DNA from: Candidatus Peribacteria bacterium | Lineage (GTDB): Bacteria; Patescibacteriota; Gracilibacteria; Peribacterales; Peribacteraceae | DNA: 64,000 bases | Assembly (NCBI GenBank): GCA_943350395.1 | Contig: CALRAD010000002.1 | Location: 1-64,000, forward strand | Reading direction: 5' to 3' | Shown: positions 31,458 through 53,334 of the stretch, in pieces | How the letters are laid out: the number at the start of each line of letters is the position of its first letter | Numbering within the stretch: the stretch's first letter is position 1 | Program-made: the position numbers and the translations under genes | The notes under the pieces: generated by a model | The model's input: the letters and a program-made list of their open reading frames with translations, nothing else | Database searches by the model: none | Told to the model about the DNA's origin: nothing

Positions 31458-31584
31458 CGGTCCTCACTCCGGCTCTGCGGAGCCACCTCTCTCCATTGGC
31501 TGGAGAGAGGAAAGTTTGTATTGAGAAAGGTACGGGCTCCCCCTTCTCCGGCATACGGAGAAGGGGTTAGGGGATGAGGACCGT
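31457..31584. repeat. Composite palindromic repeat, copy 2 (128 bp)
   Basis: ACGGTCCTCA (31457-31466) and TGAGGACCGT (31575-31584) are perfect inverted ends. Inside are CTCTCTCC/GGAGAGAG and CCCCTTCTCC/GGAGAAGGGG hairpins, as in copy 1 at 19736-19873. It fills the whole space between the M50 stop and the first TrmB stop. Confidence 0.65.
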
Positions 31585-32339
31585 CACTTCGCCACGAATG
31601 CAGTCGCCCCGAGCCATGCCAAATCGAATACTGCTTTCATCGTGCGTGCGAACGTTGGGCTTTCGACGATGAGCCCCAAAAGTTCATCTGTATTGAGGGA
31701 AACGATACCGACGGAGTTTCCGAAGATGAGGACTTCGTTCTCAAACAGGAACTGATTTTTGTTCACGAGCAGAATTTCGATGAGGTTTGCATCGTACTTT
31801 TCCGGTAAAAATGTATCGAGCACGTGCACAGTCTCGACGGTGGTGGGGGAGAGGTAGCGGGTTTTAATGCCTTTCTTCAATTTCGTTTGTGTGTAATTTC
31901 GAAAGAAGTCCGGAAAGAACTCAGTGACATTCTTGAGGTTCGTGTAGCCGAGGATCTCACGCTTCGCCGTGAGAGATTCCGTGAAGACTTTCTCCACACC
32001 GTCCCTTCCTTCGTAGAACCTGATCTTCGGCTTGAATGCCGACGTTGAAATCAACGATTTCAGTTCCGGCATCAGACTCCGCGCCATATTCATTCGTTCT
32101 TCCGTAATTCGTACGAGTTGCTCAGGGGGTTCCGGAGCAAAACACTTCACTCCGTTCTTGTTGTACTGACTCAGGAGTTTTTTCTGCAGAAGGTTGTCGA
32201 TGGTGTAGTAGCAGCTTACGCGGTTCGCACCAGCCTTCCGTGCGATGATCGACACCGGTCCGCCGCCGATTTCGAGGCAAGCGAGGTAAACGCGCGCCTC
32301 TTCGTCACTCAAGCCGATCTTTAAGAGTTCCGTGATCAT
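31584..32339 (-). CDS. TrmB-family transcriptional regulator 1
   Basis: A 251-residue regulator. The winged-helix domain spans ~1-80: LLKIGLSDEEARVYLACLE, VSIIARKAGANRVSCYYTI, LLQKKLLSQY. The TrmB-type C-terminal sensor region starts near KIRFYEGRDGVEKVFTESL. TrmB proteins usually bind sugars or other small ligands and repress or activate neighbouring genes. It is divergent from the four-gene cysteine-rich block A-D, so that block is its probable target. TATAAT (32354-32349) ends 9 bases before the ATG. The ligand is unknown. Confidence 0.85.
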   Translation of the reverse strand: MITELLKIGLSDEEARVYLACLEIGGGPVSIIARKAGANRVSCYYTIDNLLQKKLLSQYNKNGVKCFAPEPPEQLVRITEERMNMARSLMPELKSLISTSAFKPKIRFYEGRDGVEKVFTESLTAKREILGYTNLKNVTEFFPDFFRNYTQTKLKKGIKTRYLSPTTVETVHVLDTFLPEKYDANLIEILLVNKNQFLFENEVLIFGNSVGIVSLNTDELLGLIVESPTFARTMKAVFDLAWLGATAFVAK

Positions 32340-32523
32340 TCACCCTGTATTATACCTGTGTTGTCGAATTTTTTCTACAGTATTTTACTATCAATAAATG
32401 GCTTAATATAAACAAAATATAAGAAAAATAATATTGAGTGTTGGACGCATTTTGCGAAGTATGGGATAGTGTAGTCGTCATCGAAAGGGACGCACAACGT
32501 CCAAGTTTCCCCTAATTTTTCAT
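32340..32523. promoter_or_regulatory. Regulatory region, TrmB1 / cysteine-rich A-D
   Basis: A 184-base AT-rich gap. Minus-strand TATAAT is at 32354-32349 for TrmB1. On the plus side TTGGACG (32441-32447) is repeated inverted as CGTCCAA (32498-32504), and GGACG-CACAA-CGTCC forms a hairpin at 32488-32502, about 20 bases before gene A. A weak GATAGT box lies at about 32465-32470, giving a short leader containing the hairpin. This is a candidate operator or attenuator. Confidence 0.45.
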
Positions 32524-34182
32524 ATGAAAAATATTTGCACCCAATGCTCGGCACACTTCGAAATCACAAGTGAAGATCAGCGCCTCCTGAAGCTCTTCGA
32601 TGTTCCGGATCCGAAGACCTGTCCCGATTGCCGTCTGCAGCGACGACTCTGTGAACGCAACACACGAAGCTTGTATTACAGAAAATGTGATCTGACCGGG
32701 AAGCAGATCATCTCCCAATACAATACCGACTGCGTGTTTCCCGTGTACGGCATCGATGCCTGGCTCAGTGATCAGTGGGATGGACTCACGTACGGTCGTT
32801 CATTCGATTTCAGCAGACCGTTCTTCGAGCAGTTCCATGAACTTTTGAATGTCACTCCGCATCTCGCGCTCTTCAATACGCCAGGAACAATGGAGAACAG
32901 CGATTATAATAACTGCACAGGGTACCTCAAAAACTGCTATCTGATCTGCGAGAGCGATATCTGTGAGGACTCCTACTACAGCAACCTCCTCAAGAAATCG
33001 AAAGATCTGATGGACTGCTCGGTGTGTTACGAGTGTGAGCGCTGCTACGAGTGTATTGACTGTACCGGCTGTCATACAGTGCTCTTCAGTCAGGATTGCC
33101 AGCAGTGCAGCGATGGATTCTTCCTGAAATACTGTCACGGCTGCAAAGACTGCATCGGCTGCATGAATCAGAGAAACAAGCAGTACATGATCTGTAATCA
33201 GCAGTACTCGAAAGAGGAGTACGAGAAGTATAAGAAGGAGTTTGCACTCGATACGCGCAGCGGACTACTGAAGCTTGCAGAGCAATGCGATACGTTCTTC
33301 GCGACTCAGCCGCACCGCGCACTTGATATTCAGCGAAGCGAAGGGTGCACCGGTGACCGTATCTACGACTGCAAGAACGCCGTGCATTGTTTCGACGTGA
33401 AAGATCTCGAGGATTGCAGGCATTGCCAGAGACTCTCGCTCACGTGCAAGACGTGCATGGACTTCAACTCATGGGGTCAGAATAGTGAGCTCGTGTACCA
33501 GTGCTCCGCCTGCGGGGACCGAACCTATAACACCAAATTCTGCTCGACCTGTATCACACTGAAGGACTGCGAGTACTGCTTCGAGTGCACGACGTCATCA
33601 GATCTCTTCGGCTGTGTTGGACTCAAGCATGCGCGTTTCTGCATCTTCAACGTGCAGTATACGGAAGAGGAGTATCGCGTTCTGCGTGCGAAGATCATCG
33701 AGCACATGAAGAAGGGTAGCGACTACGGTGAATATTTCCCTATGTCACTCTGTGCTTTCGCCTACAACGAAACATTTGCACCGGATCTGTTTCCGATGAC
33801 AAAAGAAGAGGTACTCGCACGCGGCTGGCGCTGGTACGAACACAGGGAAACAGAGAAGCAGTACATGGGTGCGGACGTCACGCTTCCGGAAACGATCGGT
33901 GAAGTTTCCGATGATCTCTGCAAGCAGATACTGCTGTGCAAGGCGACAGGAAAGCCCTACAAGATTATTCCCCAGGAACTAAAATTTTATCGTTCCATGG
34001 ACCTCCCCGTGCCATTCCTTTGCCCTGACGAACGTCACCGTCTGCGGATCACTAAAAGAAATCCTTATAAGCTCTTCACGCGCGAGTGTGCGAAGTGCAA
34101 GAAGCAGACGGAGACAACATACGCACCCGAGAGAGCAGAGATTATTTATTGTGAGGATTGCTACCTTTCCACTGTCTACTGA
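32524..34182 (+). CDS. Cysteine-rich array protein A (module 1)
   Basis: 552 residues with 50 Cys by my count (9%). There is no signal peptide or membrane helix, so it is probably cytoplasmic. Order: an N-terminal zinc-ribbon-like CTQC (5, 8) ... CPDCRLQRR (33, 36), then KCDLTGKQIIS. Next come WLSDQWDGLTYGRSFDF and RPFFEQFHEL, then a first Cys-dense core ending in NQQYSKEEY. A second Cys-dense core ends in NVQYTEEEY. A conserved YNET..P block and IIPQELKFYR follow, and the protein closes with a CAKC...YCEDC ribbon. Seven Cys occur at every third residue in the first core. Function unknown; metal binding is the obvious inference. Confidence 0.8.
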   Translation: MKNICTQCSAHFEITSEDQRLLKLFDVPDPKTCPDCRLQRRLCERNTRSLYYRKCDLTGKQIISQYNTDCVFPVYGIDAWLSDQWDGLTYGRSFDFSRPFFEQFHELLNVTPHLALFNTPGTMENSDYNNCTGYLKNCYLICESDICEDSYYSNLLKKSKDLMDCSVCYECERCYECIDCTGCHTVLFSQDCQQCSDGFFLKYCHGCKDCIGCMNQRNKQYMICNQQYSKEEYEKYKKEFALDTRSGLLKLAEQCDTFFATQPHRALDIQRSEGCTGDRIYDCKNAVHCFDVKDLEDCRHCQRLSLTCKTCMDFNSWGQNSELVYQCSACGDRTYNTKFCSTCITLKDCEYCFECTTSSDLFGCVGLKHARFCIFNVQYTEEEYRVLRAKIIEHMKKGSDYGEYFPMSLCAFAYNETFAPDLFPMTKEEVLARGWRWYEHRETEKQYMGADVTLPETIGEVSDDLCKQILLCKATGKPYKIIPQELKFYRSMDLPVPFLCPDERHRLRITKRNPYKLFTRECAKCKKQTETTYAPERAEIIYCEDCYLSTVY

Positions 34183-35864
34183 TGAAAAAAATCTGCCTTC
34201 ACTGTTCAGCGAAGTTTGAGATCCCGGAGGACGATCTTCTCTTCTTCGAGAAAGTCTCACCGATCTTTGCCGGCAAAAAAGAACTGATCCCACCCCCGAC
34301 TCTGTGTCCTGACTGTCGTCAGCAGAGACGTCTTGCGTGGAGGAACGAGAAGCGGCTCTACCACCGGAAGTGTGATCTCACGGGGAAGCAGATCCTCTCG
34401 ATTTATGCTCCCGATTCGCCGTACACGGTCTACGATCACCGTGAGTGGTACACGGATAAGTGGGATCCACATGATTATGGACGCGAGTTCGATTTTTCAC
34501 GTCCGTTCTTCGAGCAATTTGGGGAACTTCTTCTCAAAACTCCGATGCGTTCGGTGAATCTGCAGGCTGAGAATGAGAATTGCGAGTACACGAACCTGAC
34601 GACCAGAAACAGGAACTGCTATCTGGTTTTCGCAGCGAACGATAACGAGGATTGCTACTATTGCATGTACATTCACAGGAGCAAGAACTTGATCGATTGC
34701 TTCTTCGTTTTCGACAGTGAGCTCTGTTACGAGTGTGTCGACTGCGAGCACTGTTACGATCTGCGTCACAGTCAATATTGCGAGACATGCAGCGAATCGG
34801 AGATGCTTTTTGCCTGTCGCGGCTGCAAAAATTGTTTCGGCTGCGTAAACCTCACCAACAAGGAATATCATTTGTTCAATCAGAAGATGGACAAAGAGAG
34901 TTATCTCCAAGCGGTTGCCGATATTCGCTGTAGCAGAGAAATGTTCGAGCGTGCGAAGGAAGAATTTATGAAACTTCGTCTTTCACTACCTCATAAAGAA
35001 TATGCGGGACTCAGTAATGAAAATGTCAGCGGAGATCACTTGAATCACTGCAAGAACGTGAAGCAGTCCTTCGACTGCACTTACGACGAAGATTGCTCGT
35101 ACTGCACATGGCTTCACCAATGCAGGGAATGTAGAGACTGTTACGCATGGGGGATACCTGGGGAGCTTGGGTACGAAAATCACCTGATCGGAAACGGCTT
35201 CTACAATGTCCGGTTCAGCGAATCGTGCTGGAATAACGTCAGGGATCTTCTGTACTGCCGCTACTGCCTCGACGGTTCACACGACTGCTTCGGTTGCAAC
35301 GGTCTTCGTGCCGGTTCGTACTGCATTCTCAATAAGCAGTACACAAAAGAGGAGTACGAGAGACTGGTGCCGAAGATTATCGAACATATGCGCAGTACGG
35401 GTGAGTACGGCGAATTCTTACCAGCAACACTTTCTCCGTATGCCTACAACGAAACTGTTGCGCAAGAATATTTTCCGCTCTCCAAAGAAATCGCGGAAAA
35501 ACAGGGTCTTCGCTGGAGACCGGAAGATCCGGAAGAGAAGAAGTACTTGGGTCCGAAGATAGAAGTACCGTGGTCGGTGAGTGATGTCAGCGATGATATT
35601 TGCAAACAGATTCTGATCTGTGAGGTCACGGGCAGACCGTATAAGATCATTCCTCAGGAATTGAAGTTCTACCGCGAGCGAGGGATTCCGCTCCCGCTTC
35701 GGTGTTTCGATCAACGTCATGCAGATCGCAGAGCGCTCAGGAACCCACGAAAAATCTGGACTCGTGCGTGTGCAAAATGTAGCAAGGAAATCCAGACGAC
35801 GTACAGCCCCGAGCGACCGGAGACTGTCTACTGCGAGCAGTGTTACCTTGAAGCCGTTTACTAA
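34182..35864 (+). CDS. Cysteine-rich array protein B (module 1)
   Basis: 560 residues with about 41 Cys, paralogue of A. It starts within the stop of A (TGATG), so translation is probably coupled. It has the longer N-terminal loop between ribbon halves (VSPIFAGKKELIPPPTLCPDC), then KCDLTGKQILS, YTDKWDPHDYGREFDF and RPFFEQFGELL. The first core repeat ends in the divergent NQKMDKESY, the second in the canonical NKQYTKEEY. The C-terminal ribbon is CAKCSKEIQTTYSPERPE plus YCEQC. The last ~60 bases are almost identical to those of C. Function unknown. Confidence 0.8.
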   Translation: MKKICLHCSAKFEIPEDDLLFFEKVSPIFAGKKELIPPPTLCPDCRQQRRLAWRNEKRLYHRKCDLTGKQILSIYAPDSPYTVYDHREWYTDKWDPHDYGREFDFSRPFFEQFGELLLKTPMRSVNLQAENENCEYTNLTTRNRNCYLVFAANDNEDCYYCMYIHRSKNLIDCFFVFDSELCYECVDCEHCYDLRHSQYCETCSESEMLFACRGCKNCFGCVNLTNKEYHLFNQKMDKESYLQAVADIRCSREMFERAKEEFMKLRLSLPHKEYAGLSNENVSGDHLNHCKNVKQSFDCTYDEDCSYCTWLHQCRECRDCYAWGIPGELGYENHLIGNGFYNVRFSESCWNNVRDLLYCRYCLDGSHDCFGCNGLRAGSYCILNKQYTKEEYERLVPKIIEHMRSTGEYGEFLPATLSPYAYNETVAQEYFPLSKEIAEKQGLRWRPEDPEEKKYLGPKIEVPWSVSDVSDDICKQILICEVTGRPYKIIPQELKFYRERGIPLPLRCFDQRHADRRALRNPRKIWTRACAKCSKEIQTTYSPERPETVYCEQCYLEAVY

Positions 35865-37510
35865 TGCAAAAATCTTGCACCCACTGCTCGGCTCACTTCA
35901 CTCTCGACACTGTCGATGAGGATTTCTTTGGAAGAATCGATATGCCGCTTCCATCGGATTGTCCTAATTGCCGCAGACAGCGGCGTTTGATGTTCCGGAA
36001 CTTTTTCAACCTCTACCACCGCACATGCGATCTAAGCGGTAAGAAAATTATTTCGATGTTCGACACGGACGTTCCATTCCCCGTCTACGAAATGCACGAG
36101 TGGTGGAGCGACAAGTGGGACGGTCTTGCGTACGGGAAAAATCCGGACTTCGAAAAACCATTCTTTGATCAAGTCGCGGTGTTGCATCGGACGGTTCCGC
36201 GCATGTCGATCGCCAATGCGCAGTGTGAGAATACCGACTACTGCAATATGGCCAATGAAAGCCGCAATTGTTATCTCGTCTTCGGGAATGTCGGCAACGA
36301 AGACTGTGCGTACGGACATATTGTCTGGAAGTCGAAGGATCTGTTTGACTGTCTCTACTGTTACAAGTGTCAGCTCTGTTACGAATGCATCGACTGCGTC
36401 GAATGTTACGGACTTACATTCTCGCGTGACTGTGACAACTGTTCCTCTTCTTCATTTCTGGTGCACTGTGTCGGTTGCAGCGACTGTTTCGGGTGCGTTG
36501 GGCTTCAGCACAAGACACATCACATCTTCAATCAGCCGTATTCCAAAGAAGAGTATGCGGCAAAAATTGCGGAGCTCCGTTTCGACGCTCACGAAACAAT
36601 TGCGTGGGCAAAAAGTCAGGTCGCGGTCCTCGTCGGCAAAGAAATCGTGAAGGTGTATCACGGATTCAACTCCGAGAATGTGACCGGAGACTATCTCTAC
36701 CACTGCAAGAACATTGTGGACGGTTATGATCTCAAGAATTGCGAGGACTGCCGTCACTGTGCGACCCTCGACGGATACAAGGATTGTCACGATTCCAATT
36801 TTTCCGCGAAGATCGGGGAACTTTGCTTCAATTGTCTCACGTCCTACGGGCATACCGTTCTCTGTTGCCAGGGTTGTATGAGCCCCTCAAGCAATATCGC
36901 GTACTGCGATAGCTGTTTCAACTGCAAAGATTGCTTCGGCTGCGTTGGTCTGAAGAGTAAGCAATATTGCATCCTGAACAAGCAGTATGCGAAAGAGGAG
37001 TATCAAGCTTTGCGTGAGAAATTGATCGAGCATATGCGAAATACAAGTGAGTGGGGTCACTTCTTCCCGCATGCACTCAGTCCGTTTGCCTACAATGAGA
37101 CAATCGCGTTCCAATACTTTCCACTGACCCGTGAGGAAGTCCTCGCGCGCGGCTGGCGATGGAAAGATACGGAATCAACGGCTGAGCAATACCTTGGTCC
37201 GGTTGTCGCTGTGCCATCGTCCATTCACGATGTATCGGATGACATCACGAAGCAGATTCTCCTCTGCGAGGTCACCAAAAAACCTTTCAAAATCATTCCG
37301 CAAGAACTTGCATTCTATAAACGAATGAATATTCCGGTTCCGCGAAAATGTTTCGATCAGCGGCACAGAGAACGCATGGCGCTTCGTAATCCCCGCAGAC
37401 TTTGGCAAAGGCAGTGTGCGAAGTGCTCGAAAGAAATCCAGACGACGTACAGCCCCGAGCGACCGGAGACTGTCTACTGCGAACAGTGTTACCTCGAAAC
37501 CGTCTATTAA
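35864..37510 (+). CDS. Cysteine-rich array protein C (module 1)
   Basis: 548 residues; overlaps the stop of B by one base (TAATG). Short N-terminal ribbon loop (DMPLPSDCPNC, Cys pair intact), TCDLSGKKIIS, WWSDKWDGLAYGKNPDF. First core: CYKCQLCYECIDCVECYG ending in NQPYSKEEY; second core ending in NKQYAKEEY. SPFAYNETIAFQYFPLTREE and IIPQELAFYKRM follow, then the C-terminal CAKC...YCEQC ribbon. In this copy the middle of the second core (SSNIAYCDSC) differs from its siblings. Function unknown. Confidence 0.8.
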   Translation: MQKSCTHCSAHFTLDTVDEDFFGRIDMPLPSDCPNCRRQRRLMFRNFFNLYHRTCDLSGKKIISMFDTDVPFPVYEMHEWWSDKWDGLAYGKNPDFEKPFFDQVAVLHRTVPRMSIANAQCENTDYCNMANESRNCYLVFGNVGNEDCAYGHIVWKSKDLFDCLYCYKCQLCYECIDCVECYGLTFSRDCDNCSSSSFLVHCVGCSDCFGCVGLQHKTHHIFNQPYSKEEYAAKIAELRFDAHETIAWAKSQVAVLVGKEIVKVYHGFNSENVTGDYLYHCKNIVDGYDLKNCEDCRHCATLDGYKDCHDSNFSAKIGELCFNCLTSYGHTVLCCQGCMSPSSNIAYCDSCFNCKDCFGCVGLKSKQYCILNKQYAKEEYQALREKLIEHMRNTSEWGHFFPHALSPFAYNETIAFQYFPLTREEVLARGWRWKDTESTAEQYLGPVVAVPSSIHDVSDDITKQILLCEVTKKPFKIIPQELAFYKRMNIPVPRKCFDQRHRERMALRNPRRLWQRQCAKCSKEIQTTYSPERPETVYCEQCYLETVY

Positions 37511-37512
37511 CC

Positions 37513-39189
37513 ATGCAACGATCCTGCACCCACTGCTCGGCATCGTTTGGGATCAGCAAGGATGATCTTCAGTTTTACGACGATATCTCGCCCGTCTTCG
37601 GTGACAAAAAATGCGCAATCCCTCCGCCGACGCTCTGTCCTGCATGTAGATTCCAGAGGCGCCTCCTGATGCGCAATGACCGACATCTCTATCATCGAAA
37701 AAGTTCACTTTCAGGGAAGCAGATCATCTCTATTTACGCTCCGGAGAAAGAATTCCCTGTGTACGACCAGGACGAATGGTGGAGTGATCGGTGGGATCCA
37801 AAGGCATACGGAAGAGACATCGATTTCTCGAAGCCTTTCTACGATCAGGTACAGGAACTTCGACTCACGGTACCGCGAATTTCACTTCTGACGACCGGAG
37901 TTGAGAACAGTTACTACACGAACCATGCGCTTTTTCTGAAGAACTGTTATCTCGTCTTCGGTGGCGGTCATGACGAAGACTGCATGTTCAGTAATTATAT
38001 TTCATTCTCAAAAGATACACTCGACGGGCTTTGCTTATACTCATGTGAGCGATGCTACGAAGGCGTTTCGTCGCAACGCTGCTACGAATGTCTCTGGTTC
38101 ATGAATTGCCGCGACTGTACGTCGTGTCTGATGATCGAAGATTGCGAATCCTGCAAAAACTGTATCGGCTGTTTCGGTCTACATCGTAAAGAGTATTGCA
38201 TTCTCAATAACTTCGTCGGCAAGGAAGGCTTCGAAAAAATGCAACGCGAGCTTCTGCCGCTCACGCACGGCAAGATCGACGCACTTCGAGAGCGTTTCGA
38301 TGCGTTGAAGGCAACACTCCCGCATCGAAGCGCACATACATACGCATCAGAAAACTGCACCGGTGATGCCGTTTATAACAGTAAGAACAGTTTCGATTGT
38401 TTCGATGTTACGGACTGCGAGGACTGCAAGCACATTGCTTTCACACCGAAAGGAATCAGGAGTCAGGATGCGACGTTCACTTCTCCTGATGGTGTCGACC
38501 ATAACTACTTCGTCGGTTCCACGGTCGGTGCTCCGCGCTCGGCGTTCACGTTCATGGTGTGGTACGGCAGCGATGTGTATTGCTCAATCGAATGTCATCA
38601 CTGCCAAAATTGTTTCGGCTGCGCAGGGCTACGGAATGCGAAGCACTGCATTCTCAATAAGCAGTACACAAAAGAGCAGTACGACGAGCTGGTGCCGAAG
38701 ATCATTGAGCAGATGAAGAAGTTCGGGGAGTGGGGCGAGTTCTTTCCTCTCGATCTGTGTCCGTACGGCTACAACGAAACAAATGCTGTCGATTATTTTC
38801 CGCTCACCAAAGAGCAGGCACTCGCGCATGGATTTTCGTGGCGCGATGAGTCCGATCAGCAGGAGACATACCTCGGGCCGAAGCCGGAGATCCCTGAGAC
38901 GATTACCGATGTCGGCGATGACATCTGCACCAAGATTCTCGTCTGTGAAGCCACCGGCAGGCCCTTTAAGATCATTCCGCAGGAACTAAAGTTCTACCGA
39001 AGCATGGGACTCCCGCTTCCGAAGCGCTGCTTCGATGAGCGTCATAAAGACAGGATTCTTCGGAGAAACCCGAGGAAGCTTTGGGCACGCGATTGCGCCA
39101 AATGCAAAGAAGAAATGCAGACGACGTACTCTCCCGAAAAACCGCAAATCGTGTATTGCGAGCGTTGCTATCTTGAAACAGTCTACTAA
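37513..39189 (+). CDS. Cysteine-rich array protein D (module 1, last gene)
   Basis: 558 residues, 2 bases after the stop of C; the track's longer start runs back into C. N-terminal CTHC...CPACRFQRR with the long loop (VFGDKKCAIPPPTLC). The usual KCDLTGKQ is KSSLSGKQIIS here, so that Cys is lost. The second core is the least Cys-dense of the family (GIRSQDATFTSPDGVDHN), but NKQYTKEQY and GEFFPLDLCPYGYNET are kept. The C-terminal ribbon is CAKCKEEMQTTYSPEKPQ plus YCERC. It is convergent with TrmB2, 8 bases apart. Confidence 0.8.
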   Translation: MQRSCTHCSASFGISKDDLQFYDDISPVFGDKKCAIPPPTLCPACRFQRRLLMRNDRHLYHRKSSLSGKQIISIYAPEKEFPVYDQDEWWSDRWDPKAYGRDIDFSKPFYDQVQELRLTVPRISLLTTGVENSYYTNHALFLKNCYLVFGGGHDEDCMFSNYISFSKDTLDGLCLYSCERCYEGVSSQRCYECLWFMNCRDCTSCLMIEDCESCKNCIGCFGLHRKEYCILNNFVGKEGFEKMQRELLPLTHGKIDALRERFDALKATLPHRSAHTYASENCTGDAVYNSKNSFDCFDVTDCEDCKHIAFTPKGIRSQDATFTSPDGVDHNYFVGSTVGAPRSAFTFMVWYGSDVYCSIECHHCQNCFGCAGLRNAKHCILNKQYTKEQYDELVPKIIEQMKKFGEWGEFFPLDLCPYGYNETNAVDYFPLTKEQALAHGFSWRDESDQQETYLGPKPEIPETITDVGDDICTKILVCEATGRPFKIIPQELKFYRSMGLPLPKRCFDERHKDRILRRNPRKLWARDCAKCKEEMQTTYSPEKPQIVYCERCYLETVY

Positions 39190-39197: not shown

Positions 39198-40034
39198 TCA
39201 TTTCTTTTTATTGATCGGAGCGAAGCCCTCCGAAGCCCCGCCGCTGCGGGGCGCAGGATGGGTCTTCGTCGCCTGCAGCCACAGTGACTCGAAGAACATT
39301 CTGAACGTATCGGCAAAATTCTTGTTTTCGATTTTGACAATCGTCAATTCATCGTCATACGCAAATAATGCGACGGTATCTTCAAAAATAACCATCTCGG
39401 ACATGAATTGCATACTTTTTGGAAGCAGGCGGACTTCGTACTCGTCATCTTGCGGTATCTCTGTGATGTATCTGCGTGCACCGGCGTTGTCGACGAAGAG
39501 TTCGCGACCGCGAAGACGTTGTTGACTTCCGAAAAGCATCGGGACGACGTTGCTTCCGAATGAATTGAACATCATTTCCGAATTGAAGAATGCGCAGAAG
39601 CCGTTCTGCAGTAGAACGTCCCTGTACACCTGCTTCATTCCGTCGAGACCATGCAGTGTCGTCACACGCGGCGACCCTACGTAGTTCGGTGTCAGCGTTT
39701 TTAGGAGCGGCAATGCACCTTCTAAAAGTGTCTGCGTTTCCTTCCACTCCTGCTCACGGTTCTTTGCGTAGTGCACAAGTCGGTGCGGGGGCTCGGCGAC
39801 GAATTGGAGAACTTTTCCCTGTTCGACGTGTGAAACCAAACCTTTTTCTTCAAGGCTCTGAAGCACGAGGTACGTATGACTTCGCGATTGTTTTGCGGCG
39901 CGTGCAATATTACTCACGCGTCCTGCTTTCATTGTGAGAAGTGCGAGATACACTTCTGATTCTTTCTCATCAAGTCCTGCACGTTTCAGTAGCGGGCGTA
40001 TCGCGGTACCGGAGTACGAAGGTCGATCGTTCAT
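39198..40034 (-). CDS. TrmB-family transcriptional regulator 2
   Basis: 278 residues. The winged helix (~12-90) has LLKRAGLDEKESEVYLALL, VSNIARAAKQSRSHTYLVL and EEKGLVSHVEQGK. The sensor region includes PRVTTLHGLDGMKQVYRDVL. The C-terminal ~25 residues are Pro/Gly-rich (THPAPRSGGASEGFAP) and look like a palindromic repeat read through at the gene end. It is divergent from E-F. A perfect 8-6-8 palindrome covers its -10 box, suggesting autoregulation. Confidence 0.83.
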   Translation of the reverse strand: MNDRPSYSGTAIRPLLKRAGLDEKESEVYLALLTMKAGRVSNIARAAKQSRSHTYLVLQSLEEKGLVSHVEQGKVLQFVAEPPHRLVHYAKNREQEWKETQTLLEGALPLLKTLTPNYVGSPRVTTLHGLDGMKQVYRDVLLQNGFCAFFNSEMMFNSFGSNVVPMLFGSQQRLRGRELFVDNAGARRYITEIPQDDEYEVRLLPKSMQFMSEMVIFEDTVALFAYDDELTIVKIENKNFADTFRMFFESLWLQATKTHPAPRSGGASEGFAPINKKK

Positions 40035-40035
40035 A

Positions 40036-40057
40036 TTTGTCTAAAAGTATAGACAAA
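40036..40057. promoter_or_regulatory. Palindromic operator candidate over the TrmB2 promoter
   Basis: TTTGTCTA-AAAGTA-TAGACAAA. The minus-strand -10 TATACT (40051-40046) lies inside it. A dimeric regulator bound here would block its own gene and could influence E-F, 90 bases away. Confidence 0.55.
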
Positions 40058-40131: not shown

Positions 40132-40143
40132 TACTGATCAGTA
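40132..40143. promoter_or_regulatory. 12-bp palindrome at the gene E promoter/start
   Basis: TACTGATCAGTA, perfect. It overlaps the -10 GATACT (40130-40135), and its last A is the first base of the gene E ATG. An operator at the transcription start is likely if the message is leaderless. Confidence 0.5.
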
Positions 40144-41825
40144 TGCACAACGCACATACCTGCCAGCAGTGTCAGACATCCTTCTCCGTCACTGACGAAG
40201 ACCGAAAATTTCTCGATATGCTCTCTCCGATCATCGGCGGAATGAAACAGAACTTGCCCGAACCGACGATGTGCCCCGATTGCCGACTGCAGCGTCGTAT
40301 GGCGTGCGTGAATCAGCTCAGTCTCTATGAGCGCACATGCGACTTAACGGGTGCATCGGTCATCTCCAATATAAGACCGGGCTCTCCCTATAAGGTCTAC
40401 CGACAGGAGGATTGGCACAGCGACAAGTGGGACGCGCTCGAGTACGGAAAGGAATTTGATTTTTCGCGTCCATTCTTTGATCAGTGGCAGGAGCTCTGTT
40501 TGGCAGTTCCCCGCCCGAGCCTCTTTACCGGTTACGAATTCGATGAGAACTGCGCGTATACGAATCACGCAGGGAAGAACAAGAACTGCTACATGATCTT
40601 TGACTCTGACGAGAACCGCGACTGTTACTACAGTTACAGTATCAACCAGTGCGAAAACTGCTGCGACTGTTTCCGTGTCCGTAAGAGCGAGCTGTGTTAC
40701 GAATGTGTTGATTGTGTGCGTTGCTACGGTTCGTCGTATTTGCAGGATTGCGACAACTGCTCGAGTTCGCTCTTTCTCAAGAATTGCACAGGCTGCAAAG
40801 ACTGTCTTATGTGCAGCAACATGAAGAACAAACAGTTTTGTATCGAAAATAAGCAGTACACCGAAGCAGAATTCCATGCGACACGCGATTTGCTTCGTAC
40901 ACGGAGTGCTCTCTGCTCTGCACAGGAACGTTTCCGTGCACTCAAGCTGGAGTATCCGCAGAAGTACATGCACGGAGTGCAGAATGAAGATGTTCTTGGT
41001 GATTATCTTGTCGGCTGCAAGAATGCACAGTTTTGCTTCGACAGCGAAGATCTCTGGGATTGCCGATACGTGTATCAGGGCTTTATGCCGCTTAAGAATT
41101 GCATGGATATTCAGGAGTGTGGGGATGGCGAACTTCTCTACGAGTGTTCGGTCATGGGCTACGACATCCATAGTTCTCTCTTCTGCAGTCACGTGCTCGC
41201 AAGTGTCAGCGAGATGATCTATTGCTCGCTCTGTCCGCACAGCAAAAATTGTTTCGGCTGTATCGGTGTACAGCGCAAGCAGTACTGCATTCTCAATAAG
41301 CAGTACACGAAAGAGGAATATGAAGCACTTGTACCGAGAATCATTGAACATATGCGAAAGTCTCGCGAGTATGGCGAGTTCTTACCTGTCAGCGTTTCGA
41401 CATATGCTTACAACGAATCGCTCGCGATGGATTACTACCCGATGACGAAGCAAGATGTAGAGAGCAGAGGATGGAAGTGGCTGGATGACGAAAGAAAGAA
41501 TCGCAAAGAAGCTTCTGCGGTTGCATTGCCTGAAAGTATTGCAGAAGCAGACGATGATCTTCTGAAGAACGTCCTGACATGCAGGACCTCAAAGAAGCAG
41601 TACAAGATTACTGCGCAGGAGCTCAAGTTCTACCGTCAGATCGGTGTGCCCGTTCCGGATGAGTGTTTCTTTGAGCGTCACAAAGGTCGTATGACACTCA
41701 GGAACAAGAGAACGCTTTATGAGAGGATCTGCGGCAAGTGTTCGAAGTCGATCCAGACAACGTATGGTCCGGATCGGCCGGAGCAGGTGTACTGCGAAGA
41801 GTGCTATCTGGAAGCACTGACATGA
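40143..41825 (+). CDS. Cysteine-rich array protein E (module 2)
   Basis: 560 residues. The start MHNAHTCQQCQTSF at 40143 has GATACT ending 7 bases upstream; the track's extra 28 residues are non-coding promoter. N-terminal ribbon CQQC...CPDCRLQRR, TCDLTGASVIS, WHSDKWDALEYGKEFDF. First core CFRVRKSELCYECVDCVRC ending in NKQYTEAEF; second core ending in NKQYTKEEY. The C-terminal region diverges (DDDLLKNVLTCRTSKKQYKIT) before the CGKCSKSIQTTYGPDRPE plus YCEEC ribbon. First gene of module 2. Confidence 0.8.
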   Translation: MHNAHTCQQCQTSFSVTDEDRKFLDMLSPIIGGMKQNLPEPTMCPDCRLQRRMACVNQLSLYERTCDLTGASVISNIRPGSPYKVYRQEDWHSDKWDALEYGKEFDFSRPFFDQWQELCLAVPRPSLFTGYEFDENCAYTNHAGKNKNCYMIFDSDENRDCYYSYSINQCENCCDCFRVRKSELCYECVDCVRCYGSSYLQDCDNCSSSLFLKNCTGCKDCLMCSNMKNKQFCIENKQYTEAEFHATRDLLRTRSALCSAQERFRALKLEYPQKYMHGVQNEDVLGDYLVGCKNAQFCFDSEDLWDCRYVYQGFMPLKNCMDIQECGDGELLYECSVMGYDIHSSLFCSHVLASVSEMIYCSLCPHSKNCFGCIGVQRKQYCILNKQYTKEEYEALVPRIIEHMRKSREYGEFLPVSVSTYAYNESLAMDYYPMTKQDVESRGWKWLDDERKNRKEASAVALPESIAEADDDLLKNVLTCRTSKKQYKITAQELKFYRQIGVPVPDECFFERHKGRMTLRNKRTLYERICGKCSKSIQTTYGPDRPEQVYCEECYLEALT

Positions 41826-41848: not shown

Positions 41849-41856
41849 TCCGCTCC

Positions 41857-43557
41857 ATGCAACGAATCTGTATCAACAGCTGGTGTGCCGAGGCATTCGA
41901 GATCACTGACGACGATCTTGCTTGCTACAAGAAGCTTGCTCCGGTGATTGGCGGGCAGACCCATGAATTACCTCTTCCAGATTTCTGTTTTTCCTGCCGT
42001 TTGCAGCGCAGACTTGCGTTCTACAACAGTCGGTCTCTCTACAAACGAATATGCGATTTCTCGGGGAAACAGGTTGTCTCGGTCTTCTCTCCGGATAAAC
42101 CTTTTAAGGTGTACGACAAAGATATCTGGTTCAGCGATGCATGGAATCCGCTCTCTTACGGACGTGATTTCGATTTCGACCGTCCGTTTTTTTCGCAATT
42201 CAGAGAACTCATGGAAGCAGTGCCTCAGCTTGCGATCACACACTTTGGCTGGGAGAACATCAATAGTGAGTTCACGAATGATAATTACAAGATCAAGAAT
42301 TGCTATCTGACGTTCGATGGCGAGCAGGCCGAGGATTGTTATTACCTGCATTCATTCGTGATGGATAAAAATTGTGTCGACGGGGTTCATCTGATGCTTT
42401 CGGAGCTTTGCTACGAGTGCGTGCACTGCACGCAGTGCTATGCACTGAGGTTTGCGCGATACTCCAACAACTGCAGCGACAGCGAGTTTCTCCGTGATTG
42501 CATTGGGTGTAAGAACTGCTTCGGCTGCGCGAATCTGAGGCAGAAACAGTACTGCATCTGGAACGAACAGAAGACGAAGCAGGAGTACGAAACGTTCTTG
42601 CAGTCATTCGAATCAAGTTCGCATGACGTTGTACAGGCAATGCGGAAAAAGGCGGAAGACTTCTTCAGCCGTCAGCCCGTGAAGAGTATGCGCGGCGAGC
42701 AGAATCAGAATGTTGTCGGAGACAATATGAATCAGTCGAAGAACGCGCACTGGTGTTTCGATTGTTACAATCAGGAAGACTGCCGCTACACGACGAACTG
42801 CATGATGCCAGCGAAAGATCTCTTCGACGTGCATGTGTGGGGTGATGGGCTCGAGCTCGCCTATGATTGCTGTGTCATCGGTGCCGACTCGCGCGAATTA
42901 TTTTTCGATTACGCAGTCGCATCGAATTGCACGGATATTCTCTATTCGACCTACTGCAGTCAGGGTTGCTCGCATTGCTTCGGTTGCGTAGGGCTGCGGC
43001 GTTCCAAGTATTGTATCTTCAATCAGCAGTATTCCGAAGAAGAGTACGGGAAACTTGTGAACAGAATAATCGATCACATGCGCCAGGCAGGGGAGTGGGG
43101 GCGATTCTTTCCTTCAGAATATTCGTTCTTTGGGTACAACGAGACGATGGCGCAGACGTTCTTCCCGCTGACGAAAGAAGAATGCAAGAAGCGCGGCTAC
43201 CGGTGGTGCGACTACGAAGCAGCAATCGAAGCAACGAGAACGATTCCTGCTGCGCAGTTACCGGATAACAGTGCCGATATTCCGGATGACATCCTGAACT
43301 GGGCGATCGTGTGCGAAGTCAGCAAGAAACCATTCAAGATTATCAAGCAAGAGCTCGATTTCTATCGTACCCATCGCTTGTCGATTCCAAGACGGCACCC
43401 GAATCAGCGGCATTTTGACCGGTACGCTCTCAAAAATCCCTTCAAGCTCTTCGATCGAACGTGTGCGAAGTGCTCGAAAGCGATTCAGACAAGTTATGCG
43501 CCCGACCGCCCCGAAATTGTGTATTGCGAGGAGTGCTACCTAAAGGAGGTGTATTAA
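41857..43557 (+). CDS. Cysteine-rich array protein F (module 2)
   Basis: 566 residues. The N-terminal pair is spaced differently (CINSWC instead of CxxC), and the second pair is CFSCRLQRR. ICDFSGKQVVS and WFSDAWNPLSYGRDFDF follow. First core ends in NEQKTKQEY, second in NQQYSEEEY. The C-terminal part belongs to a second subtype shared with G and H: IPDDILNWAIVCEVSKKPFKI, then CAKCSKAIQTSYAPDRPE plus YCEEC. Start at MQRICINSW, supported by TACAAT. It converges on TrmB3 with 3 bases between. Confidence 0.8.
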   Translation: MQRICINSWCAEAFEITDDDLACYKKLAPVIGGQTHELPLPDFCFSCRLQRRLAFYNSRSLYKRICDFSGKQVVSVFSPDKPFKVYDKDIWFSDAWNPLSYGRDFDFDRPFFSQFRELMEAVPQLAITHFGWENINSEFTNDNYKIKNCYLTFDGEQAEDCYYLHSFVMDKNCVDGVHLMLSELCYECVHCTQCYALRFARYSNNCSDSEFLRDCIGCKNCFGCANLRQKQYCIWNEQKTKQEYETFLQSFESSSHDVVQAMRKKAEDFFSRQPVKSMRGEQNQNVVGDNMNQSKNAHWCFDCYNQEDCRYTTNCMMPAKDLFDVHVWGDGLELAYDCCVIGADSRELFFDYAVASNCTDILYSTYCSQGCSHCFGCVGLRRSKYCIFNQQYSEEEYGKLVNRIIDHMRQAGEWGRFFPSEYSFFGYNETMAQTFFPLTKEECKKRGYRWCDYEAAIEATRTIPAAQLPDNSADIPDDILNWAIVCEVSKKPFKIIKQELDFYRTHRLSIPRRHPNQRHFDRYALKNPFKLFDRTCAKCSKAIQTSYAPDRPEIVYCEECYLKEVY

Positions 43558-43560: not shown

Positions 43561-44340
43561 TTATTCTTTCAATCCTTGCATCGGCTGCTTGTCGGCACTC
43601 GCCCCCTTCCATGCGAGTTCAAAGACAGCACGCTCGGTCTTCGTGTAGACGGAACTCTCGATGATCATGCCAATGAGTTCATTCGGATTGAGTGACAAAA
43701 TTGCCGCACGGTCGTTGTAGAATGTGATCTGATACTCGAAGGGTGCCGAAGCAGGATCCACGAATAGCACTTCCACGAGGTACGTATGGAATCCCTGCGG
43801 ATAACAGTGACCAAGATGACGGAGTCCTTCGTTGGAATGCGGCGAAAGGAAGCGCGTTCGGATACGTCTCTCGAGTTTCTGATTCGCGTAGTGGATGAGT
43901 TCGTTCTCAGGGAGCACGCTCGGAAGTGCACCGAAATCCGTGTAGCCGATAATCTCATGCTCGGCATTCAGCGTGTCTTCGAGGACGTTTCTGATCCCTT
44001 CAGTTCCTTCGTAGTACTGGATCTTCGGCTTGTAGGCGAGTGCATGGGTCATCGAGAGAAGTTCAGGCAGAATTTTCTCCGCACGCTCGAGTTTCTGTTG
44101 CTGCTTCCGGACGAGAATACGCGGGTCTTCTGCTGAGAAGTGACGAACATTGTTTTTGGAGAATTGCGAGATCAGTCCTTTCGATGTCAGTCCTTCCAGA
44201 ATTTTATAACACACCACGCGGTGCACTCCCGCCTGCTTCGCGATCGCACTGACGTACGATCCGCCGAGTTCAAGCAGTGCGATATACACTTTCGCTTCGT
44301 CGTCGCTTAAGCCGAGTTCGATCAAGTCAGAAGATTTCAT
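43561..44340 (-). CDS. TrmB-family transcriptional regulator 3
   Basis: 259 residues. Winged helix: SDLIELGLSDDEAKVYIALLE, VSAIAKQAGVHRVVCYKILE, LTSKGLISQFSKNNVRHF. The sensor region starts at KIQYYEGTEGIRNVLEDTL. It is most similar to regulator 1, which shares SQ(Y/F)-x-KN and C-x-x-I in the same places. It is divergent from gene G. TATTAC (44353-44348) ends 7 bases before the ATG and lies inside an inverted repeat. Confidence 0.85.
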   Translation of the reverse strand: MKSSDLIELGLSDDEAKVYIALLELGGSYVSAIAKQAGVHRVVCYKILEGLTSKGLISQFSKNNVRHFSAEDPRILVRKQQQKLERAEKILPELLSMTHALAYKPKIQYYEGTEGIRNVLEDTLNAEHEIIGYTDFGALPSVLPENELIHYANQKLERRIRTRFLSPHSNEGLRHLGHCYPQGFHTYLVEVLFVDPASAPFEYQITFYNDRAAILSLNPNELIGMIIESSVYTKTERAVFELAWKGASADKQPMQGLKE

Positions 44341-44342: not shown

Positions 44343-44378
44343 TTGTTGTAATAAAATTACTACAAATAGAATATTCTA
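44343..44378. promoter_or_regulatory. Operator candidates, TrmB3 / gene G
   Basis: TTGTTGTAAT-AAA-ATTACTACAA (44343-44365, one mismatch) covers the TrmB3 -10. A separate perfect palindrome, TAGAATATTCTA, follows at 44367-44378. Both sit between the regulator and gene G. Confidence 0.55.
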
Positions 44379-44457: not shown

Positions 44458-44464
44458 GACTTGC

Positions 44465-46156
44465 ATGCAAACCTTCTGCGCCTCCTGCGCTCTGTCATTC
44501 ACGGTCATGGATGACGATCTTGCGTTCTACGATCAAGTTTCGCCGATCTTCGGAGGGAAGAAATATGGCATCCCTCCACCAACGCTTTGTCCGGATTGCA
44601 GACAGCAGAGGCGACTCAGCATCGTGAATGAAAGAAATTTTTATACAACCACATGCGGCCTCTGTAAAAAACGAACGATGACTGAGCATCCTTCGGAGAG
44701 CGGCAAGACAGTTTATTGTCGAGATTGCTGGTTCAGCGATCGTTGGGACAGCTGTTCGTATGGCAAGGACGTCGATTTCACACAACCGATTTTTCCTCAG
44801 ATTTTAGAGCTCGTTCGCTCTGTTCCTGCGCTCAACTTGCTTGCCGAAGGAACGAACGTGAACTCGGATTACATTCACTATGCAGGATACGCAAAGAATT
44901 GTTACTTGATCATGCATGCGGACTTCTGCGAGGACTGTTACTACGGATACGGTTTCAAGAAGAACACGAGCTGTGTCGACGGATTTTATAATCTGAGTTG
45001 CCAGCTCTGCTACGACTGCGTCGATGTGCACAGTTGTTACGGACTGAAGGGATCTCAGGACTGTGTAAACTGTTCCTCTTCCGCTTTCCTCCGCGACTGC
45101 ATCGGTTGCAAGAACTGTTTTCTCTGTGCGGGGCTACGCAACAAAGAATATTGTTTTGAGAACGAGCAGCTCAGCAAAGCTGACTACGAGGCGAGAGTGG
45201 CTGCGATCGATCTTTCATCCTACAGGCAGTACCAAGGATGCAAGGTGAAGAGAGCGGAGGTTGAGAAGAATCATCCTTTCAAACAACTCCACACGCACAA
45301 TCTCGAAAACTGCTCGGGCGACTATCTCCAGAATTGCAAAGACACGCAGTGCAGTTTCGATTGCGAGGATGTCGAGCGCGGTAAATTTCTCTATCAGGTC
45401 GTGACCGGAGCCAAGAATGTCTATGATATTTATCAATACGGTTTGAATCTTCGGGAGTCCTACGAATGTTCCATTGCTGGCACAGAAAGTTACGGGATTC
45501 GCTTCACACACAATGCGCATAACAGTTGTGCAGAACTTCTGTACTGTTGGTACATTCAGACATCGAAAAACTGTTTTGGTTGCGTCAATATGAATCGAAA
45601 GCAGTATTGCATCTTCAACAAGCAGTACACGAAGCAGCAGTACGAGGAACTTGTACCCAAGATTATCGACTACATGAAGAAAACAGGCGAGTGGGGAGAG
45701 TTTTTTCCGACGACCTTTTCGCCATTCGGGTATAACAAGTCGTCTGCACAGATGTATTACCCGCTGACGAAAGCCGAGGCGCTGAAGCGCGGTTGGAAGT
45801 GGGATGACAGCAAAGAGGAGCCTCCGGTTGTGTCAAAAATCATCGCTGCCTCGATGCTTCCGGATGCGATCACGGATATTCCCGATGACATTTTGAACTG
45901 GGCGGTGGAATGCGAGGTGACAAATAAGCCCTATAAAATCACACCGCAGGAACTCCGGTTCTACCGCGAGCAGAATCTTCCGGTTCCGAGGCGATGTCCC
46001 GACCAGCGTCATCTCGATCGATTTGCACAGCGCAATCCGAGAAAGTTCTTCGATCGTCCCTGCGCAAAATGCAAAAAAGCAATTCGGACAACATATAGTC
46101 CTGAGGAGCCCGAAACAGTCTATTGCGAGGAGTGCTATCTCACCTCCGTTTACTAA
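44465..46156 (+). CDS. Cysteine-rich array protein G (module 3)
   Basis: 563 residues starting MQTFCASCALSF; the track's 42 extra N-terminal residues lie upstream of the promoter. N-terminal ribbon CASC...CPDCRQQRR. Where the siblings have KCDLTGKQIIS...VYD, this copy has TTCGLCKKRTMTEHP...VYCRDCWFSDRWD, a complete extra CxxC-CxxC ribbon. First core ends in NEQLSKADY, second in NKQYTKQQY. The C-terminal subtype is IPDDILNWAVECEVTNKPYKI, then CAKCKKAIRTTYSPEEPE plus YCEEC. Only cysteine-rich gene of its module. Confidence 0.8.
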   Translation: MQTFCASCALSFTVMDDDLAFYDQVSPIFGGKKYGIPPPTLCPDCRQQRRLSIVNERNFYTTTCGLCKKRTMTEHPSESGKTVYCRDCWFSDRWDSCSYGKDVDFTQPIFPQILELVRSVPALNLLAEGTNVNSDYIHYAGYAKNCYLIMHADFCEDCYYGYGFKKNTSCVDGFYNLSCQLCYDCVDVHSCYGLKGSQDCVNCSSSAFLRDCIGCKNCFLCAGLRNKEYCFENEQLSKADYEARVAAIDLSSYRQYQGCKVKRAEVEKNHPFKQLHTHNLENCSGDYLQNCKDTQCSFDCEDVERGKFLYQVVTGAKNVYDIYQYGLNLRESYECSIAGTESYGIRFTHNAHNSCAELLYCWYIQTSKNCFGCVNMNRKQYCIFNKQYTKQQYEELVPKIIDYMKKTGEWGEFFPTTFSPFGYNKSSAQMYYPLTKAEALKRGWKWDDSKEEPPVVSKIIAASMLPDAITDIPDDILNWAVECEVTNKPYKITPQELRFYREQNLPVPRRCPDQRHLDRFAQRNPRKFFDRPCAKCKKAIRTTYSPEEPETVYCEECYLTSVY

Positions 46157-46907
46157 TCTTCGGCTCCGGCAGCAAATCCCACATCATCTTCCACCAGATG
46201 CGATAACTCGCCGCGAGGCGGGGGCTCACCATCACGAAGATCGTGAGATCGTCTTCCAGTTTTCCGAATCCGAGTCCTGTGAACGTTACGACATGATCAC
46301 CGAAAACTTCGATCGCGGACTCTGATGTGTATTTCTTCGGTGCAAATTTATACGGCTTGCCGACGGCTTCGGGCACATGAGGCACTTTCTCCTGCACTTC
46401 CCAGTCAAAGATGTGATGAAATTTCATTTTCTTCTTCTTTGCCTCGGTCAGAAACCATTTCGTGAACGTCTCCAGCCGTGGATCGAACCAACCGCCCTTC
46501 GCGCCGAACTCGTACATATCTTCGCCGACTTTCAGTGCCTCACGCAGAAAGTTTTTCATTCCCTCGACGCCTTTATAGATGTACGCGCGCTGCACGGCAC
46601 GTTGCGATCGATACGTCGAAAAGAGCTCGGGGAGTGCCTTATCGAGCAGGCGTTCTTTCTCTTTCACAAGCTCCATCAGCTTTCCCGGTTCTACTGCTTC
46701 GTAGACGGTTTCTCCCTGGCTGAAGACCTCTGATACAAGCCCCTTTTCGATAAGTCTATGCACTGCATCGTACGCATTGCGGCGATGGACCCCTGAGCGT
46801 AGTGCAATCGTCGACACGCCGGAACCTCCGAATGTCAGGAGTGCTTCGTAAATGCGCGCTTCATTCGGAGAGAGACCGAGTTCTTGGAAGAGTTCTGCAT
46901 GCAACAT
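46140..46907 (-). CDS. TrmB-family transcriptional regulator 4
   Basis: 255 residues. Winged helix LFQELGLSPNEARIYEALL, VSTIALRSGVHRRNAYDAVH, LIEKGLVSEVFSQGE. The sensor region includes RAYIYKGVEGMKNFLREAL. Met codons at 46913 and 46907 are possible. TATACT (46920-46915) ends 7 bases before 46907 but only 1 before 46913, so I use 46907. Its tail overlaps the end of gene G by 17 bases. It is divergent from the 47011-H unit. Confidence 0.83.
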   Translation of the reverse strand: MLHAELFQELGLSPNEARIYEALLTFGGSGVSTIALRSGVHRRNAYDAVHRLIEKGLVSEVFSQGETVYEAVEPGKLMELVKEKERLLDKALPELFSTYRSQRAVQRAYIYKGVEGMKNFLREALKVGEDMYEFGAKGGWFDPRLETFTKWFLTEAKKKKMKFHHIFDWEVQEKVPHVPEAVGKPYKFAPKKYTSESAIEVFGDHVVTFTGLGFGKLEDDLTIFVMVSPRLAASYRIWWKMMWDLLPEPKISKRR

Positions 46908-46977
46908 AGACATCAGTATAGCAGATTGTGGTGATAACTGCCACCTTATGGTGATCTATGCTACTCATTTGAAATTC

Positions 46978-46984
46978 CTATAAT
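46978..46984 (+). promoter_or_regulatory. Possible -10 of the 47011-H operon
   Basis: TATAAT lies about 27 bases before the ATG at 47011. An overlapping alternative, TTGACA-17-TCTAAT, would place the start of transcription inside the gene. A GGTG...CACC inverted repeat (about 46930-46945) lies between this and the TrmB4 -10. Confidence 0.35.
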
Positions 46985-47010
46985 TGACACAGTTTCCTAA
47001 TCATTCTCTA

Positions 47011-47502
47011 ATGACTACAGAATCTTCTCGCAACCCGGCTGAAGCAAAAGCTATGATGCTGTATTTCACTGACCTGCTGGGTCAGGGATGGGAAGGTCGA
47101 CTCTATCACCTGTTGAATGCGGGGAGTGTATTTGCAGGTGCTCGAAATGTAACTACTGCCGAAGAGGCAATGGCCTATTCTGAAAGTTTACTTTCACAAG
47201 TGCCGACGGAGGAAAAAGATATGATTGCTTCCTATGTGAAAAGTATGTGTGGAGAAGGCAGAAATGTCGTATTTCTCGCTAACCCAACGATTGTTTATGG
47301 CAACGCTGAATTTCATTTATTCGGTGCTCGGCACCAGAATGTGGGAAGCGTGAATCTGTTCTCTCTTCCCTTGGTTCGATTCAGAACTATATGCGAATTG
47401 AGGGGTTGGCAGGAGCCGGAAGCTGACGCAGGTAGTCCAATCGATTCTGCGAAGCAGGAGGAACGAAGAAAGCTGGATCAATTATTTTCCTCTCTCCGAT
47501 GA
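47011..47502 (+). CDS. Hypothetical protein coupled to gene H, 163 aa
   Basis: Not recognised. A soluble protein with one Cys near the middle: MMLYFTDLLGQGWEGRLYHL, SLLSQVPTEEKDMIASYVK, a more beta-like middle (VVFLANPTIVYGNAEFHLFG) and a charged helical end. Its stop overlaps the start of cysteine-rich gene H by 4 bases (ATGA), which implies translational coupling. It is the only gene in the array that is neither a cysteine-rich paralogue nor a regulator, and so may be a partner of H. Confidence 0.6.
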   Translation: MTTESSRNPAEAKAMMLYFTDLLGQGWEGRLYHLLNAGSVFAGARNVTTAEEAMAYSESLLSQVPTEEKDMIASYVKSMCGEGRNVVFLANPTIVYGNAEFHLFGARHQNVGSVNLFSLPLVRFRTICELRGWQEPEADAGSPIDSAKQEERRKLDQLFSSLR

Positions 47503-51600: not shown

Positions 51601-51604
51601 TGAA

Positions 51605-51624
51605 AGAAAACCTAGCGGTTTTCT
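51605..51624. terminator. Hairpin after the VirD4-like gene
   Basis: AGAAAACC-TAGC-GGTTTTCT, 8-bp stem, 5 bases after the stop. No T run follows, so termination is uncertain. Confidence 0.35.
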
Positions 51625-51653
51625 CTCACTGGCTCTCTTTCCCTTTTATTGGA

Positions 51654-51696
51654 GCAGCTCCAGCATTGGGGCCCGCGAGACCCAATGCTTCGCTGC
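51654..51696. repeat. Stem-loop repeat, TTCG type
   Basis: GCAGC-TCCA-GCATTGGG ... CCCAATGC-TTC-GCTGC: an 8-bp inner and 5-bp outer stem with an asymmetrical internal loop. It lies between the VirD4-like gene and the -10 box of the next gene. Confidence 0.4.

Positions 51697-53259: not shown

Positions 53260-53334
<75 letters not shown>

Follow-up and report, generated by a model that had tools for sequence, protein, structure and literature searches.

A family of cysteine-rich proteins encoded by a tandem array in a Candidatus Peribacteria bacterium, in which two solenoids per chain lie between zinc domains, is linked to one particular type of VirD4/HerA-like ATPase. This link is well supported, resting as it does on fixed gene linkage, on co-occurrence among related genomes and on one natural fusion, and it suggests that ultra-small bacteria possess a motor-and-partner system not yet described. 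The window analysed here is a stretch of 64,000 nucleotides, within which eight paralogs, A to H, lie between 32524 and 49226, A being the first. In the reading preferred here, for which the chance is put at a little short of even, the solenoid proteins are partner or adaptor subunits of a soluble VirD4/HerA-type ring motor and are deployed in sets under the control of TrmB-like regulators.

Domain plan and predicted fold of protein A

Protein A is organised as follows, with positions given in the window and residues in the protein.

32524..34182, forward strand: protein A, 552 aa, zinc domain-solenoid-solenoid-zinc domain
32524..32763, forward strand: N-terminal zinc domain, aa 1-80 (hhalign, column counts)
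32884..33210, forward strand: solenoid core 1, aa 121-229, about nine 12-residue coils
33016..33072, forward strand: run of seven Cys at spacing 3, aa 165-183
33196..33222, forward strand: NQQYSKEEY, aa 225-233, end of solenoid 1 and start of its C-terminal helix
33322..33663, forward strand: solenoid core 2, aa 267-380, homologous to core 1 (hhalign)
33649..33675, forward strand: NVQYTEEEY, aa 376-384, end of solenoid 2 and start of its C-terminal helix
33904..34179, forward strand: C-terminal zinc domain, aa 461-552, homologous to the N-terminal one

The initial annotation had described two cysteine-dense cores in one chain, each ending in the same short signature, and had interpreted them as an internal duplication. 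The comparison of profiles bears this out, the two cores (aa 116-236 and 268-392 of A, with profiles built from 127 relatives) matching one another in hhalign with an E value of 5.8e-35 and a probability of 99.9%, and as single sequences they align in BLASTP at E 1e-5. The zinc domains at the two ends of A are also homologous to each other (hhalign probability 99.8%, E 1.2e-27) and the plan of the protein is therefore zinc domain-solenoid-solenoid-zinc domain. The duplication is wider than had been proposed, the zinc ends being doubled too; the cores also have a 12-residue period, and A is the first of eight tandem paralogs. Both signatures, NQQYSKEEY and NVQYTEEEY, are present in A, and in the model each solenoid ends, and a C-terminal helix begins, at the shared form N-x-Q-Y-x-x-E-E-Y, DSSP placing the helices that follow at residues 230-240 and 381-397. 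It had further been claimed that a GC-x-x-C run precedes both signatures; this holds for the first (GCKDCIGC) but not for the second, before which there is only FGCVGL. The seven cysteines reported at intervals of three residues form an unbroken series at positions 165, 168, 171, 174, 177, 180 and 183 (DCSVCYECERCYECIDCTGC), compared with a longest run of five and a mean of 2.3 in 500 shuffles of A. Pairs of Cys at distance 3 in A lie 7.9 SD above the shuffles, an excess that is common to all eight paralogs, and the Cys content of the array family proteins is about 7%.

Two structures had been suggested for this spacing, and it is the regular solenoid with a Cys ladder that the model favours. 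The AlphaFold2 prediction for A (pLDDT 90.1, pTM 0.89, from a 127-row alignment) shows both cores confidently as solenoids rather than as unrelated folds, with bridge residues at every third position, one residue past each lattice position. Core 1 can be written in 12-residue rows as CYLICESDICED / SYYSNLLKKSKD / LMDCSVCYECER / CYECIDCTGCHT / VLFSQDCQQCSD / GFFLKYCHGCKD / CIGCMNQRNKQY, in which the inward phases of the coil, 0, 3, 6 and 9, are small or hydrophobic and Asp and Asn are frequent at phase 11. Of the coil phases, 4, 5, 7 and 8 are the most variable. A Foldseek search of the PDB with A produced no match at E <= 0.001, the best being LpxD (E 7e-3, TM 0.07), so that the exact fold of the coil stays a prediction, and comparison of the solenoid fold with viral models produced no significant match. 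No Pfam or NCBIfam model covering the solenoid was found, nor was any prior description of the family found in the open literature.

The other suggested structure, a multinuclear metal cluster, was rejected for the cores because their Cys columns tolerate substitution and do not co-vary. Unlike the zinc columns, most of the Cys columns of the cores hold 25-88% Cys, and Ser, Thr, Val, Leu, Ala or Gly make up the remainder; there is no strong Cys co-variation between core columns at any offset (Cys 6 apart give a mean r of -0.13, and bonds are not readable from sequence); and the shorter solenoid homologs have Ser in place of most core Cys. Invariant Cys ligands, such as those of metallothionein and metal-thiolate cluster proteins, are absent from the cores. 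Since the core Cys are exchangeable and do not co-vary, metal clusters are unlikely, as are obligatory disulfides, and the simplest reading is that Cys is there to fill the solenoid interior as a small buried side chain.

The classical zinc sites of A sit in the terminal domains and not in the cores. Column counts show that Cys5, 8, 33 and 36 of the N-terminal domain are conserved at 95-99% and that its second site is degraded, and that Cys522, 525, 543 and 546 of the C-terminal domain are conserved at 98-100% and that its first site is eroded. In profile comparisons both ends match stand-alone zinc proteins of about 100 aa that exceed the cut-offs of PF13451 (zf_Tbcl) and PF23477 (zf_Tbcl_2), the figures for the N-terminal domain being a probability of 99.6 and an E value of 1e-23 in hhalign. 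On the array proteins themselves the zf_Tbcl and zf_Tbcl_2 models remain below the curated cut-off (best for A 23.6 bits versus 27), and the C-terminal domain of A gives subthreshold matches to PF23477/TIGR04272. The terminal domains presumably bind zinc. No hydrophobic N-terminus or membrane helix was seen in the hydropathy of the family proteins.

The array, its regulators and the adjoining ATPase

The other genes and the operator-like sites of the array are, in order of position:

31584..32339, reverse strand: TrmB-like regulator 1, divergent to A (PF01978, 26.9 bits, cut-off 25.6)
32362..32379, no strand assigned: operator-like dyad TGTCGAATTTTTTCTACA
34182..35864, forward strand: paralog B
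35864..37510, forward strand: paralog C
37510..39189, forward strand: paralog D
39198..40034, reverse strand: TrmB-like regulator 2, divergent to E (PF01978, 50 bits)
40038..40055, no strand assigned: operator-like dyad TGTCTAAAAGTATAGACA
40137..41825, forward strand: paralog E
41854..43557, forward strand: paralog F
43561..44340, reverse strand: TrmB-like regulator 3, divergent to G (PF01978, 51.8 bits)
44347..44364, no strand assigned: operator-like dyad TGTAATAAAATTACTACA
44462..46156, forward strand: paralog G
46140..46913, reverse strand: TrmB-like regulator 4 (PF01978, 57 bits)
47499..49226, forward strand: paralog H
49345..51600, forward strand: VirD4/HerA-like ATPase, 751 aa (PF02534, 35.4 bits, cut-off 20.1)

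The seven other paralogs of the array are 39-47% identical to A, and with two further members elsewhere in the genome the family numbers ten. The named best matches place the lineage in Peribacteria/Peregrinibacteria within Patescibacteria. Some family match was found in 41 of 58 relatives, with up to about 25 copies per genome in genomes of about 1.2 Mb, which is a heavy investment for reduced genomes, and an even sample of the phylum gave a match in 54 of 380, many of these being single modules only. Just eight of 149 members, in a sample biased towards close relatives of A, have their closest relative within their own genome, and A has counterparts of 70-71% identity in other genomes and no paralog above 47%, from which it follows that the paralogs are old and separately maintained. 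Family members also appear in records titled Micrarchaeota and Nitrospirota (L026 and L066), which are probably mis-binned Patescibacteria contigs, transfer being the alternative. Between TrmB-like regulator 4 and paralog H there is a 172-aa ORF (46984-47502) with no Pfam match.

The four regulators are interleaved with the array on the opposite strand, and all four exceed the PF01978 cut-off of 25.6 (26.9-57 bits). Across loci the TrmB-like neighbour was divergently upstream of family genes in 24 cases out of 29. Of 25 divergent intergenic regions, 19 contain an 18-bp dyad (TGT-N12-ACA, at least 6 of the 9 pairs formed), whereas 200 shuffles gave a mean of 0.41 and at most 3, although the count is descriptive because the motif had been noticed in the same regions before counting. 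When dyad spans of 12-24 were compared, 18 gave the 19 regions (0.13 expected) and the next best, 21, gave 8. No dyad was found in the region of the fourth regulator of the window, and the three that are present point to a division of the array into at least three blocks under separate control (A-D, E-F and G). The TrmB-like proteins would act on these by repression. The half-sites fall into the classes TGTAGA, TGTCTA and TGTTCTT (divergent regions of L034, L043, L079, L060 and L091 and of the window), which suggests that the various TrmB-like regulators differ in specificity.

The gene for the ATPase directly follows the paralog array. Above cut-off its product matches T4SS-DNA_transf (PF02534), TrwB_AAD_bind (PF10412; 23.7 versus 20.5 bits) and DUF87 (PF01935), and the fold of its model (pLDDT 81.5) matches VirB4, TrwB, HerA, HerA-NurA and HerA-DUF4297. 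No N-terminal membrane anchor or membrane helix was found in it, the maximum 19-residue hydropathy being 1.18. Homologs of the ATPase adjoin family genes in 30 loci, with a median gap of 88 bp. Among 39 relatives, 19 of the 20 that have full-length members carry the array-type ATPase, defined by at least 53% identity, and none of the 18 without such members does (Fisher 1.1e-9, a value that overstates independence since the relatives share ancestry). One genome (G017) was counted on a 190-aa ATPase fragment at a contig edge with 73% identity, and another (G040), whose form is split and whose ATPase is more distant, was left out of the count. In G001 (93% complete, 50 contigs) there are three family members and the array-type ATPase was not found, and in some genomes the ATPase and the listed members are on different contigs. 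All 39 relatives also have other VirD4-like genes, and the link with the solenoids is therefore specific to the array-type ATPase. The genome under study (G000) encodes three more VirD4-like ATPases (C6:58120-59691, C1:20919-22574 and C1:15354-16922), and their types occur in relatives both with and without the array.

Simpler forms of the same association occur in other genomes. Two of them (G242 and G040) encode the zinc protein and the double solenoid in distinct adjoining genes, with the ATPase nearby; in G040 translation places a stop between the zinc and the double-solenoid parts, giving two genes. A different class of the phylum, together with G385, has a single solenoid of about 232 aa that is homologous to the cores (probability 97.7%) and that lies directly after an ATPase of this type in 11 genomes, whilst in G328 ATPase and solenoid form one 629-aa ORF with the motor first and the solenoid C-terminal. 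The single solenoid is thus beside or fused to this type of ATPase in 12 of 12 genomes, and, given that adjacency and the one fusion, it is most likely the working partner of the adjoining or fused motor. The short solenoid proteins (L120-L123 and L160-L166) have an extra N-terminal part of about 100 aa with no Pfam match, which is partly missing in the fusion of L132.

Several other features of the window were noted. Between 49223 and 49345 there are GC-rich inverted repeats and then a TATAAT-like hexamer that ends 9 bases before the start of the ATPase, which may have its own, perhaps leaderless, promoter. The ORF after the ATPase (51563-52243, about 176-226 aa, start uncertain) has no Pfam match. 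It is followed by a Bro-N gene, phage antirepressor-like, at 52301-53002, which strongly matches the PADLOC candidate model PDC-S13 (E 3e-95) and adjoins a tRNA-Thr gene at 53260-53334. A phage or mobile origin of the array was rejected: there was no phage match, 2.9 million viral contigs gave one marginal edge match, and the window has no second copy of the 3' end of tRNA-Thr such as would mark an island. For RNA elements in the window Rfam gives only the tRNA.

A possible motor with solenoid partners and its rivals

An important consideration is how a single ATPase might work with so many solenoid proteins. The ATPase would be a soluble hexameric ring motor on which the solenoid proteins dock; in the natural fusion the solenoid follows the motor domain on its C-terminal side. 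One variable face of the solenoid would be presented to the substrate, and the variable phases 4, 5, 7 and 8 would suit such a face, with the conserved faces meeting the motor or packing within the protein. The paralogs would be kept as an old and distinct set from which the cell expresses subsets, these being selected by dedicated TrmB-like regulators acting on the 18-bp dyads. Double duplication, 12-residue period, predicted fold and ancient paralogy have been computed, as have the linkage and co-occurrence with the ATPase, the fusion and the conserved dyads; physical docking, the hexamer, substrate choice and substrate identity we infer from them, together with the adaptor role. With up to about 25 solenoid proteins for one motor, the solenoids might also be its substrates or act independently of it. 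A broader proposal, of a Patescibacteria machine that consists of one cytosolic VirD4/HerA-type motor, 1 to about 25 zinc-tipped Cys-laddered adaptors and TrmB-like repressors, is possible but on balance rather doubtful; were it true, at least part of the phylum's many orphan VirD4-like ATPases would be explained.

It is unlikely, though worth serious attention, that the solenoids are instead export substrates (effectors or surface proteins), with the ATPase as coupling protein for a type IV channel directed towards the host. VirD4-like ATPases are the classical coupling proteins, T4SS are known in Patescibacteria (PMC12102498), there is a distant VirB4-like match elsewhere in the genome, and the family proteins, whose copy number varies up to 25 per genome, resemble type IV substrates in having no N-terminal signal. 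However, the other class has one solenoid per motor, adjacent and once fused, and export of the solenoids by the motor fits poorly with a fusion and 1:1 operons. Furthermore the array ATPase has no predicted membrane helix, the neighbourhood of the array showed no T4SS gene, and the paralogs are ancient, conserved genes that do not turn over rapidly.

Somewhat more improbable still is a role in nucleic-acid processing, in which the ATPase would pump DNA in the manner of HerA and the zinc-tipped solenoids would bind or process DNA or RNA, the part that NurA or DUF4297 plays for HerA, possibly in defence. The HerA, HerA-NurA and HerA-DUF4297 fold matches of the ATPase and the treble-clef-like zinc modules in each family protein favour this reading. 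Against it, the cores carry an acidic charge (median -5 and -4), the solenoid revealed no conserved motif of nuclease type, and a defence system was rejected, there being no convincing PADLOC match for the family proteins. There is very little likelihood that the proteins form a disulfide-braced extracellular beta-helix, either an adhesin or an ice-binding protein like that of beetles: the inward spacing (2, 5, 8, 11 of 12) is that of TmAFP (PMC8038014) and large extracellular Cys-rich proteins have been reported for Peribacteria (PMC4736985), but those run to about 1,655 aa and for the most part carry signal peptides according to the published description, whereas the array proteins have neither signal peptide nor membrane helix, carry zinc domains, have a cytosolic ATPase partner and no TxT ice-binding column, and their Cys 6 apart, the spacing of the TmAFP disulfide pairs, do not co-vary. 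A metal-thiolate cluster or metal/redox store, with a row of metal ions on Cys i, i+3 and i+6, would make use of the high Cys content, the lattice runs of up to seven Cys and the free thiols that a cytosolic location favours, but is similarly far from probable given the column substitutions, the lack of pairwise co-variation (mean r -0.13 at offset 6) and the dominance of Ser in homologous solenoids.

Comparison with known systems

The array ATPase shares Pfam domains and fold with the VirD4/TrwB coupling ATPases and with HerA, all of the FtsK-HerA superfamily. Unlike VirD4 and HerA, it has no membrane helix, and its partners are solenoids and not a relaxase, virB genes, NurA or DUF4297. NurA and DUF4297 are operon partners of HerA, so that partnered motors of this superfamily are already known, but a solenoid partner for such motors, and a repertoire of them, appears to be new. 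A survey of Patescibacteria in 2025 counted 5,713 VirD4-like ATPases in 2,918 genomes, only 148 of them near virB4, noted that thousands of such genes away from virB4 have no known function, and allowed for the exaptation of these ATPases to other functions (PMC12102498). For a subset of the orphan VirD4-like ATPases a specific partner can now be named, in one case naturally fused to the motor, which makes the question of exaptation testable.

Both ends of the family proteins are homologous to the small zinc proteins zf_Tbcl (PF13451) and zf_Tbcl_2 (PF23477, TIGR04272), from which they differ in being fused to solenoids and in keeping only one of the two sites intact at each end. Within the same lineage, Ca. 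Peribacter riflensis encodes large extracellular Cys-rich proteins with a mean length of 1,655 aa, most of them with signal peptides, and these resemble the array family in their Cys-richness and clustered genes (PMC4736985); proteins of about 550 aa without a signal peptide are set apart from them, as far as the published description extends. In the beetle antifreeze protein TmAFP the inward-facing residues of each 12-residue coil are those at positions 2, 5, 8 and 11 (PMC8038014). TmAFP and DhbAFP, right-handed beta-helices with the repeat TCTxSxNCxxAx, have the same 12-residue coil with an inward residue at every third position, and share with the cores of A an interior of Cys, Ser and Ala (PMC8038014). 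Unlike TmAFP, the array family shows no sign of a disulfide pattern in its sequences and no TxT face, is cytosolic and zinc-flanked, and has two solenoids per chain. The resemblance is best regarded as a likeness in design, homology not being implied, and the Cys/Ser-laddered 12-residue coil may represent a bacterial parallel of the beetle antifreeze beta-helix, one that would lack its disulfides.
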